NCBI GenBank assembly: GCA_019358835.1
Contig: JAHHIH010000017.1
Span: 1 to 64,000, forward strand
Source: Tildeniella torsiva UHER 1998/13D
Lineage (GTDB): Bacteria; Cyanobacteriota; Cyanobacteriia; Phormidesmidales; Phormidesmidaceae
DNA length: 64,000 nt
Direction of reading: 5' to 3'
This document shows, piece after piece, positions 54,635 through 57,291 of the stretch. Made by a program: the position numbers and the translations under genes. Each line of letters begins with the position of its first letter. The stretch's first letter is position 1. The notes under the pieces were generated by a model. It searched no databases. It saw nothing but the letters and a program-made list of their open reading frames with translations, and was not told the origin of the DNA.

Positions 54635-55996
54635 CTGAAAACCCGCGTAATTATCGTTCGTCACGGGCAGAGCACCTACAATCAGCAAAAGCGCATTCAA
54701 GGCCACTGCGACGAGTCAGAGCTAACCCCGGCGGGCGAGGCCCAGGCGCTGCAAGTGGGTCAGGCGCTGGTGGGCATTCCCTTTGATGCGGTGTGGGCCA
54801 GTCCATTCAAGCGCGCCCGAAAAACGGCAGAAATTATCACGGCAGAACTGCAAAAGGCGACCCCCGACCTGGCGTCACCGACATTTTCAGACAACCTCAA
54901 AGAAATCAGCCTGCCGCTGTGGGAGGGGGTGCCCTTTACCGAGGCCGAGGCTCAACATCCTGAAATCTTTGATCAGTGGCGCACTGACCCCGCCAATATG
55001 GTCATGGCTGTGCCCCAGCCCGATGGCGCGATCGTAGACTTTTACCCCATTCGCGAGCTGTATCAGCAGGCGGCGCGGTTTTGGCCAGAGCTGTTGGCGG
55101 CTTACCAGGGCAAGACTATTCTCATCGTGGCCCACAGCGCCATTAACCGAGCGCTGATTAGCACCGCCATTGGCCTGGGGCCAGAATATTTCAACAACCT
55201 CAACCAGGCCAACTGCAACATCAGCGTGCTCAACTTTGAGGGCGGCTGGGGCAGCCCAGTGCAGGTCGAGGCCATGAACCTGACCAGCCACATGGGGGCA
55301 CCGCTGCCGGAAATGCGGCGCGGCCACAAAGGCCCGCGCATGCTGCTGGTGCGCCACGGCGAAACCGAGTGGAACCGCCAGGGTCGCTTTCAGGGCCAGA
55401 TCGATGTGCCGCTGAACGACAACGGTCGCGCCCAGGGGGCGAAGGCGGCGGAGTTTCTCAAACCCGTGGCGATCGATGCGGCCTACACCAGCTTTATGGC
55501 GCGACCGAAGGAAACGGCAGAAATCATTCTTCAGCACCATCCAGGGCTGACGCTGCACTCGGTGAACGAGCTGCAAGAGATTAGCCACGGCGAATGGGAA
55601 GGGCTCTACGAATCGGAGATCGAGAGCAACTATCCGGGGATGTTGGAGCAGTGGCAGAGTGCTCCCGAAACGGTGCAAATGCCGGGGGGCGAAAACCTGG
55701 AGCAGGTGTGGGTGCGATCGATCGCCGCCTGGAAGGAAATCGTCGCGGCCCACAGCGGCGGCGACACGGTGCAGACCATTCTCGTTGTCGCCCACGATGC
55801 GGTCAACAAGGCGCTGCTCTGCCACGTGCTGGGGATGGGGCCAGAGTCGTTTTGGCGGTTTAAGCAGGGCAATGGGGCGGTGAGCGTGATTGACTACCCT
55901 AACGGCATCGACAGCGCCCCGGTGCTGGTCACGGCCAACATTACCATTCACCTATCGGGCAGCGTGCTCGATAAGACCGCAGCGGGGGCCCTGTGA
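54635..55996 (+). CDS. Tandem histidine phosphatase (two PGM-like domains)
   Basis: A 453-residue protein with two histidine-phosphatase domains. The first has the RHG motif in RVIIVRHGQSTYNQ (H10) and a second His in VAHSAIN (H167); the second has LLVRHGETEWNRQGRFQG (H241) and VVAHDAVNKALL. The motif of domain 1 lies upstream of every ATG/GTG start in the frame except non-catalytic ones, and the frame is closed by TGA at 54620. The only plausible start is CTG 54635, with GAGAGGA at 54621-54627 eight bases before it. It probably dephosphorylates small phosphoesters. The stop overlaps the next gene (GTGA). Confidence 0.85.
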   Translation: MKTRVIIVRHGQSTYNQQKRIQGHCDESELTPAGEAQALQVGQALVGIPFDAVWASPFKRARKTAEIITAELQKATPDLASPTFSDNLKEISLPLWEGVPFTEAEAQHPEIFDQWRTDPANMVMAVPQPDGAIVDFYPIRELYQQAARFWPELLAAYQGKTILIVAHSAINRALISTAIGLGPEYFNNLNQANCNISVLNFEGGWGSPVQVEAMNLTSHMGAPLPEMRRGHKGPRMLLVRHGETEWNRQGRFQGQIDVPLNDNGRAQGAKAAEFLKPVAIDAAYTSFMARPKETAEIILQHHPGLTLHSVNELQEISHGEWEGLYESEIESNYPGMLEQWQSAPETVQMPGGENLEQVWVRSIAAWKEIVAAHSGGDTVQTILVVAHDAVNKALLCHVLGMGPESFWRFKQGNGAVSVIDYPNGIDSAPVLVTANITIHLSGSVLDKTAAGAL

Positions 55997-57291
55997 CCGA
56001 GGTTGTTGGGAGCGGGGCGCAGCTAATTCAGCAGGTGCGGGTGCTGGATGCGGTGACCCAGACCGATCAGGTCGCCGATGTGCTGGTGCAGGACGGTGTG
56101 GTGACGGAAATCGCCGCATCTCTGACCGTCATCCCCGCCAGCGCTGAAATGGTTCAGGGCCAGGGAAAGGTCTTGCTGCCGGGCCTGGTCGATCTCTACA
56201 GCCACTCGGGGGAGCCGGGCCACGAGCCGAGGGAAACCCTGGCCTCGCTGCTGGCAGCGGGGCAGGCGGGCGGCTTTACCCGACTGGGCATTTTGCCGAA
56301 TACCGAGCCTGCGATCGACCATCCGGCAATGGTCGAGAAGCTGCTGGGGCGGCGAGCAACCCTTGCCCAAACTAATCCCTCTCTACCGCATCTATATCCC
56401 TGGGGTGCGCTGACCCAGGGTGCCCAGGGCCAGCAAATGGTGGAGTTGGTGGAGCTGTCTGAGGCGGCGATCGCAGGCTTTGCCGACGGTCGAGCGATTC
56501 AAAATCCACTACTGACCCAGCGGCTGTTGCAGTACCTAAAGCCCTTGGGTAAGCCGGTGGCGCTGTACTGCTGCGATCGCACCCTGCGCGACAGCGGCGT
56601 GGCCCGCGAAGGCCCGTTTTCGCTGATCTACGGCCTGGTGGGCGACCCGGCCAGCTCTGAGACCGCCGCCCTGGCGGCGCTGTTGGAATGCGTCGCCGAG
56701 GTGGGCACCCCCGTTCACCTGATGCGGATTTCTACGGGGCGCGGGGTCGAGCTGGTGCGCCAGGCCAAGGAGCGCGGCTTGCCTGTCACCGCCAGCACCA
56801 CCTGGATGCATCTGCTGTGGAGCGCCAAGGATCTGGGTGGCTACGACCCCAACCTGCGCTTGTCGCCGCCGTTGGGCAATCCCGAAGACCAGGCGGCGCT
56901 GATTGAGGGGGTGAAGGCGGGGGTGGTGGATGCGATCGCGATCGACCATACTCCCCACACCTACGAAGACAAAACCGTGGGCTTTCCTTCGGCCCCGCCT
57001 GGAGCCATTGGCCTGGAGCTGGCCTTGGGCATTTTGTGGGATACCTTTGTCACCCAGGGCGACTGGTCGCCGCTGACGCTGGTGCAGGCGCTGAGCACAA
57101 ACTCTGCTGCGTGCTGGGGTCAGACGCCGCCGACTATTCAGCCCCAGCAGCCTGCGGAAATGATTTTGTTTGACCCCGGCACTACCTGGACGGTTACGCC
57201 CTCAACCCTGTGCTCTTTATCTGCCAATACCCCCTGGTTGGGGAAAGCGATCCCCGGTCGAGTTCTGCGTACTTGGGTGCCGCCGCGTTAG
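55993..57291 (+). CDS. Dihydroorotase homologue without full metal site (PyrC'-like)
   Basis: A 432-residue amidohydrolase-fold protein starting at GTG, overlapping the phosphatase stop. The canonical VDxHxHxREPG is VDLYSHSGEPG: the first His is Y69 and the substrate Arg is G73, while H71 remains. The HAED position is YCCD (192-195), and the second His of HxxHxST is R245 in VHLMRIST. Later AIDHTPHTYED is kept. So several metal ligands are lost, as in non-catalytic PyrC' partners of aspartate transcarbamoylase. Catalysis is unlikely; a role as structural partner or regulator is inferred. The same variant occurs in other cyanobacteria. Confidence 0.85.
   Translation: MTEVVGSGAQLIQQVRVLDAVTQTDQVADVLVQDGVVTEIAASLTVIPASAEMVQGQGKVLLPGLVDLYSHSGEPGHEPRETLASLLAAGQAGGFTRLGILPNTEPAIDHPAMVEKLLGRRATLAQTNPSLPHLYPWGALTQGAQGQQMVELVELSEAAIAGFADGRAIQNPLLTQRLLQYLKPLGKPVALYCCDRTLRDSGVAREGPFSLIYGLVGDPASSETAALAALLECVAEVGTPVHLMRISTGRGVELVRQAKERGLPVTASTTWMHLLWSAKDLGGYDPNLRLSPPLGNPEDQAALIEGVKAGVVDAIAIDHTPHTYEDKTVGFPSAPPGAIGLELALGILWDTFVTQGDWSPLTLVQALSTNSAACWGQTPPTIQPQQPAEMILFDPGTTWTVTPSTLCSLSANTPWLGKAIPGRVLRTWVPPR

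Follow-up and report, generated by a model that had tools for sequence, protein, structure and literature searches.

We find that the gene at positions 55,993 to 57,291 of the window, by which we mean the whole 64,000-nucleotide stretch of Tildeniella torsiva DNA analyzed here, encodes a homolog of dihydroorotase (DHO) in which part of the zinc site has been replaced. Our preferred reading, which we hold with moderate confidence, is that this pseudo-DHO lost its catalytic site once, carries an Arg-Asp pair in the former metal site and has been kept as a non-catalytic subunit, most likely of the aspartate transcarbamoylase (ATCase) PyrB. More generally, the protein is probably a structural or regulatory partner. 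The features used below all lie on the forward strand, and counts out of 182 refer to the aligned family members described in the second section.

54635..55996, + strand: two-domain histidine phosphatase directly upstream of the pseudo-DHO; PF00300, 352.7 bits over two stretches; start probably CTG at 54635
55993..57291, + strand: pseudo-dihydroorotase gene (NF005614/PRK07369); GTG start, 432 aa (coding part 55993-57288); NF005614, 592.6 bits
56197..56211, + strand: Y69-S-H71-S-G73, once the HxHxR motif; position 61 is Y in 178, F in 3 and H in 1 of 182
56485..56487, + strand: D165, zinc-ligand Asp kept (Aquifex D153), next to a one-residue deletion; D in 136, E in 4 and Y in 1 of 141
56566..56577, + strand: YCCD (192-195), where an HCED-type motif once carried a beta-site His (Aquifex H180); none of the 182 has His
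56725..56727, + strand: R245, replacing the second beta-site His (Aquifex H232); R in 172, G in 7, N in 2 and H in 1 of 182
56944..56946, + strand: D318, Asp kept (Aquifex D305), co-varying with R245; D in 172, N in 9 and E in 1 of 182

Fold and active site of the window protein

In a profile search the 432-amino acid product was a full member of the NCBIfam family NF005614/PRK07369, which is named "dihydroorotase" (592.6 bits, cut-off 456), and it also scored above the cut-off of TIGR00857 (337 bits, cut-off 279.05); a Pfam search at E 0.001 gave no match. An AF2 model built from 46 sequences has a mean pLDDT of 95.7 and a pTM of 0.94, and a Foldseek search with this model returned the DHO of Aquifex aeolicus in its ATC-bound form (3d6n_A) as the closest PDB structure, with a TM score of 0.90 over the query and 30% identity. 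Both the family profile (TIGR00857) and the TIM-barrel of the model are those of a type I dihydroorotase, and the DHO fold is predicted to be intact, as the initial annotation had claimed. Comparison of the window gene with its ten nearest named orthologs gave dN/dS values of 0.09-0.17 (median 0.128 over 55 pairs), and purifying selection still acts on the gene. Named orthologs at 82-94% identity come mostly from Nodosilinea and Leptolyngbya. A decaying local pseudogene was considered and ruled out, given the open frame, the dN/dS of ~0.1 and the conserved orthologs.

Active-site residues were numbered according to the Aquifex DHO, to which the window protein was aligned. The residues that we take to be the substrate-carboxylate set (Aquifex R65, N95 and H309) are kept at two positions, as N103 and H322, and the Arg has become G73. 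The zinc ligand set of an active type I DHO (HxH, Asp, His, His and a late Asp) corresponds to H61, H63, D153, H180, H232 and D305 of Aquifex, whose roles are described in PMC3880350. Three of these six are replaced in the window protein (H61 by Y69, H180 by Y192 and H232 by R245) and three are unchanged (H71, D165 and D318). The alignment thereby bears out the initial annotation, which had listed Y69, G73, YCCD and R245 as replacements, counted at least three lost ligand positions and noted that the late Asp region is kept. Because an H180A/H232A double mutant of the Aquifex enzyme is described as active in the same paper (PMC3880350), the loss of the beta-site His residues alone is no proof of inactivity, and the case for a dead enzyme therefore rests on the loss of H61 and R65 too. 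Judged by its residues, the window protein would lack DHO activity.

Ligand loss across the family

The NF005614 profile was searched against a phylum sample of 292 genomes, of which 183 gave some match and 103 a match above the cut-off; in the control genomes a match was found in 14/14 and exceeded the cut-off in 1/14. The alignment used for counting ligands contains 182 sequences, made up of 102 of the 103 genomes (G087 was left out) and 80 named loci from GTDB genomes, including Nodosilinea, Planktothrix, Nostoc, Microcystis and Arthrospira. L069, which is the same gene as L017, and the truncated L271 (G066) were left out, and since some genomes still enter twice (e.g. L067/L194 and L017/L185) the counts are of sequences and not of independent genomes. 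For position 153 a separate set of 141 sequences was used.

The replacements listed above for positions 61, 180, 232 and 305 recur throughout the alignment. The substrate Arg at position 65 is absent from all 182 sequences, and the residue at the H180 position varies. H63 is retained in 141 and replaced in 41, while 113 sequences have D at position 95 and 130 have Y at position 309. The full ligand set occurs in 0/182, and the 25 diverged picocyanobacterial sequences that fall below the NF005614 cut-off are without it too. Since the same positions are replaced family-wide in a gene under purifying selection, the change of ligands is beyond chance. It appears from these sequences that most oxygen-producing cyanobacteria in the sample share this altered form, and that it represents a class-wide family with one apparent origin instead of a local oddity, the class of the window presumably being the photosynthetic one. 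As no class sequence has the full ligand set, the functional label "dihydroorotase" of NF005614 is doubtful. No description of a cyanobacterial pseudo-DHO family or of its metal-site ion pair was found among the titles and abstract openings of the open-licence PMC literature.

Two further observations were made in these sequences. L249 (G135, family f9) keeps HxH (H61 and H63) and has lost R65, H180 and H232; its sister L075 has Y61 and R63. The pseudo-DHO frames of L083 (G085), L096 (G241) and L090 (G177) are open for 650, 584 and 707 codons, respectively, well upstream of the usual start.

Evolutionary history

Among relatives outside the class of the window, all nine tabulated positions are intact in 21/21 fetched sequences, which is why catalysis was probably lost once. 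The nearest intact homologs in the phylum sample, the type I PyrC proteins of families f31 and f38, served as the tree outgroup; they differ from the pseudo-DHO in their nine intact positions and, in f31, in having pyrB as a neighbor. Family f20 and its genus g34 are presumably Synechococcus/Prochlorococcus-like. In 25 of the 35 f20 genomes a diverged form below the NF005614 cut-off is present, and all 25 sequences have H at position 61 and have lost H63, R65, H180, H232 and D305.

A tree of 112 rows was built by a quick method after removal of the functional columns. All class members, the picocyanobacterial ones nested among them, form one clade with an SH-aLRT of 100 that excludes Aquifex and the intact relatives; 42 of the 109 inner branches have support below 80, and one picocyanobacterial row is very long. 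The single clade at SH-aLRT 100 means that catalysis was most simply lost once and early, and on the sequences sampled the loss probably preceded the divergence of the class members.

In g34, a genus of small genomes, the pseudo-DHO was not found in 10/11 genomes, also when a picocyanobacteria-specific profile was used, and three of the ten lacking genomes still have its neighbors, from between which it has been cleanly removed. In these three loci (L318, L320 and L321) the phosphatase gene and a convergent gene flank the site from which the pseudo-DHO gene is absent; the same-genus genome G217 (L319) keeps the pseudo-DHO gene. A hidden divergent pseudo-DHO in g34 was rejected, as the specific profile gave no match in 10/11 and synteny shows absence in the three fetched loci.

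Covariation in the former zinc site

The initial annotation did not extend to the covariation of R245 and D318. The joint states at positions 232/305 in the 182 sequences are R/D 171, R/E 1, G/N 7, N/N 2 and H/D 1 (Fisher p 2e-13, with relatedness ignored), and in the 25 picocyanobacterial sequences they are N/H 22, N/N 2 and G/H 1. Mapped on the tree, the two sites show 6 changes each (5 for site 305 if Glu is counted as Asp), and 5 branches, including the picocyanobacterial stem, are common to both. This places 232/305 at the top of the 1,653 site pairs in the range of 4-8 changes, among which 12 pairs share 3 branches and none shares 4; site 257, with 16 changes and so outside this range, shares 4 with site 232. 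When the well-supported branches alone are used, 3 independent pairs are left, a number so small that the sign test gives p 0.25. According to PMC3880350, D305 and H232 of Aquifex both face the metal centre, and because of this Arg245 would lie in the former zinc site against Asp318. The pattern in the sequences suggests an ion pair between R245 and D318 in the place of the metal.

The conserved replacements could instead mean that the pocket has been re-used, for the binding of a new ligand or for metal-independent catalysis on Y69, H71, R245 and D318. The high counts of Tyr at 61, Arg at 232 and Asp at 305 (178, 172 and 172 of 182) would fit such a pocket, as would the entropy percentiles of position 61 (6th) and position 232 (19th), where the lowest are the most conserved. 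However, H71 is among the residues replaced in 41/182, the H180 position is variable, R245 and D318 were both swapped for other residues on 5 branches, and the picocyanobacterial members have lost more of the site, so that we regard a re-used pocket as distinctly unlikely.

Other dihydroorotases in the genomes

The initial annotation had proposed a search of the genome for a second, intact pyrC, and a profile search found one. The type II PyrC at G000:C45:109103-110119 scores 515 bits (cut-off 292.95) and carries the motifs HLHLR, KYYPAG, LLHGEV, LEHVTT and GTDSAPH expected by comparison with the E. coli PyrC ligands (PMC2770081). A second TIGR00857 match, on contig C19, is a dihydropyrimidinase by profile (TIGR02033, 573 bits). 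Across the 103 genomes with NF005614, NF005751 alone is over its cut-off in 79, TIGR00856 alone in 21, both in 1 and neither in 2, so that another DHO match over the cut-off is present in 101/103. The DHO step would then be carried by another gene, NF005751-type in most genomes and type II PyrC here and in others.

In the two exceptions, G131 and G245, no other DHO was found with TIGR00856, NF005751, TIGR00857 or an NF005751-type protein query; with PF01979, G131 shows two matches in addition to the pseudo-DHO, and G245 shows four. The G131 assembly is a draft in ~170 contigs. Two genomes of the same genus as G245 have NF005751 next to a gene whose match in G245 is only 47%, so a missing segment or a deletion is possible there. 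G185 may be a third exception without an intact recognized DHO: its NF005751 match (G185:C31:12116-13360) holds three stops and no TIGR00856 PyrC is over the cut-off. These genomes, the retained N103 and H322 and the activity described for the Aquifex H180A/H232A mutant are what one would cite for a pseudo-DHO that still works as a DHO with a remnant site. We consider this most improbable, since the window protein has lost His61 of the alpha site, both His residues of the beta site and the substrate Arg (Arg65), an intact PyrC is present in the window genome and another DHO match in 101/103, and the gaps in G131 and G245 may lie in a fragmented draft or in a deletion.

Inspection of the coordinates by eye picked out ten genomes in which the pseudo-DHO and NF005751 genes are 0.8-1.9 kb apart; three of these (G062, G185 and G197) have an NF005751 match that is partial or contains stops. 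Proximity of this kind fits a role in pyrimidine synthesis and could point to an inactive partner that regulates or stabilizes the active NF005751-type DHO, yet the pseudo-DHO persists where NF005751 is absent: in 21 genomes that have a type II PyrC but lack an NF005751 match above the cut-off, the window genome included, and as the diverged form in 25/35 f20 genomes. We therefore judge a partnership with the NF005751-type DHO to be very unlikely. As a separate observation, G251, G284, G062 and G197 have a type II PyrC (TIGR00856) together with an NF005751-type match that is partial or has stop codons, as if one DHO displacing the other had been caught in progress.

The upstream histidine phosphatase

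The pseudo-DHO gene overlaps the phosphatase gene, as the initial annotation had pointed out; the overlap is 4 nt (GTGA at 55993-55996). Before the first RHG motif the phosphatase frame has no ATG, GTG or TTG, and the CTG at 54635, with AGAGGA upstream, is probably its start. A phosphatase with a broken N-terminus, as the listed ORF start at 54755 might imply, was ruled out because the frame is open to the first RHG motif, with the probable CTG start. A phosphatase ORF lies upstream on the same strand in 60/71 named, 16/30 sampled and 5/5 picocyanobacterial loci (those with at least 1.2 kb upstream were counted), and in 0/4 intact relatives from outside the class. From this arrangement and the 4-nt overlap, the pseudo-DHO could be a scaffold or regulator of the overlapping, probably translationally coupled phosphatase and not a partner of ATCase. 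The arrangement is, however, absent in 14/30 sampled loci, and the phosphatase is retained in 10/10 g34 genomes without the pseudo-DHO. We consider a partnership with the phosphatase unlikely, and the preferred partner of the pseudo-DHO is still PyrB.

PyrB and aspartate transcarbamoylase

The TIGR00670 transcarbamoylase profile matches with E 1e-66 or better in 103/103 genomes and in 35/35 f20 genomes. In six genomes (G060, G062, G068, G101, G167 and G278) the transcarbamoylase profile matches three times and its best score is lower (E ~1e-67 to 1e-69), as if pyrB were interrupted. The window-genome PyrB scored 155 bits against 2at2/3r7d, presumably the B. subtilis enzyme, 147 against 6pnz and 141 against Aquifex; these scores are uninformative as to class.

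In Pseudomonas the pyrB and pDHO genes are adjacent. Of the features of a class A2 ATCase, the window genome has by sequence an inactive-type DHO homolog together with a separate intact DHO gene (PyrC on C45), and it lacks adjacency, as pyrB (C41:24950) and the pseudo-DHO (C48) are on different contigs. The intact DHO gene and pyrB of f31 lie on the same strand within ~60 nt of each other (match ends) in 11/11 genomes with both places given; in f38 the two genes occupy separate contigs in 5/5. Since ten of 11 g34 genomes keep pyrB without the pseudo-DHO, PyrB can work without it in that genus. Among PyrB columns that are invariant elsewhere, 6 are changed in six tested genomes out of the ten that lack the pseudo-DHO. 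The number is 5 in G217, a member of the same genus that keeps the gene, and 0-1 in five other picocyanobacterial genomes; this conserved-column comparison of six genomes gave no clear sign of a released PyrB interface where the pseudo-DHO is missing.

The pDHO of P. aeruginosa is described as inactive yet required for ATCase (PMC7053772). Given this precedent, the fold and the gene history (the pyrB neighbor in f31), the most likely role would be that of a non-catalytic ATCase subunit as in Pseudomonas, support for ATCase being one of the roles that the initial annotation had suggested. We infer both a physical ion pair and a partnership with PyrB. An ancestral zinc-dependent type I DHO would have lost its catalytic site a single time, ahead of the divergence of the sampled class members; Arg245 would have replaced one beta-site His and paired with the retained Asp318, so that the barrel could stay closed without zinc; and the protein would have been kept as a non-catalytic subunit, most likely one that holds or tunes the PyrB trimer like the pDHO of Pseudomonas. 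A more sweeping version, which we put forward tentatively, is that the pseudoenzyme arose at the base of the oxygenic cyanobacteria with an Arg-Asp pair in place of zinc, forms an ATCase holoenzyme as a non-catalytic and possibly ligand-sensing subunit, was dismantled further in picocyanobacteria and was deleted in the smallest genomes.

Significance and comparison with known systems

The family named dihydroorotase in cyanobacteria by NF005614 is very probably not a dihydroorotase, and metabolic models and annotations may therefore err at the DHO step. The family also offers a system for asking what makes cells retain inactive enzymes and how the place of a metal is taken once the metal is gone. 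Its assets are one early loss, intact relatives, conserved replacements, five branches on which Arg and Asp change together and naturally occurring deletions in small-genome picocyanobacteria, and the quaternary structure of cyanobacterial ATCase becomes directly testable.

Several known systems can be set beside it. By score the window protein belongs fully to the NF005614 equivalog; the name is doubtful in view of the ligand sets of the class sequences. The type I DHO of Aquifex aeolicus in the DHO-ATC complex (3d6n, 4bjh) is the top structural match, but the wild-type enzyme still has its zinc ligands and is catalytically active as part of the complex (PMC3880350). The likeness to the pDHO of Pseudomonas (PyrC', class A2 ATCase) is drawn from published descriptions. 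It lies in a ~45 kDa inactive DHO homolog needed for ATCase (PMC7053772), in a genome that encodes an active DHO besides it (PMC2770081); the adjacent pyrB of Pseudomonas is a difference. The fungal CAD-like pseudo-DHO domain of Ura2 likewise has, as described in PMC7053772, a DHO fold without zinc ligands in a protein of the pyrimidine pathway; it is a domain of a fused protein, whereas the cyanobacterial pseudo-DHO is encoded by a separate gene.
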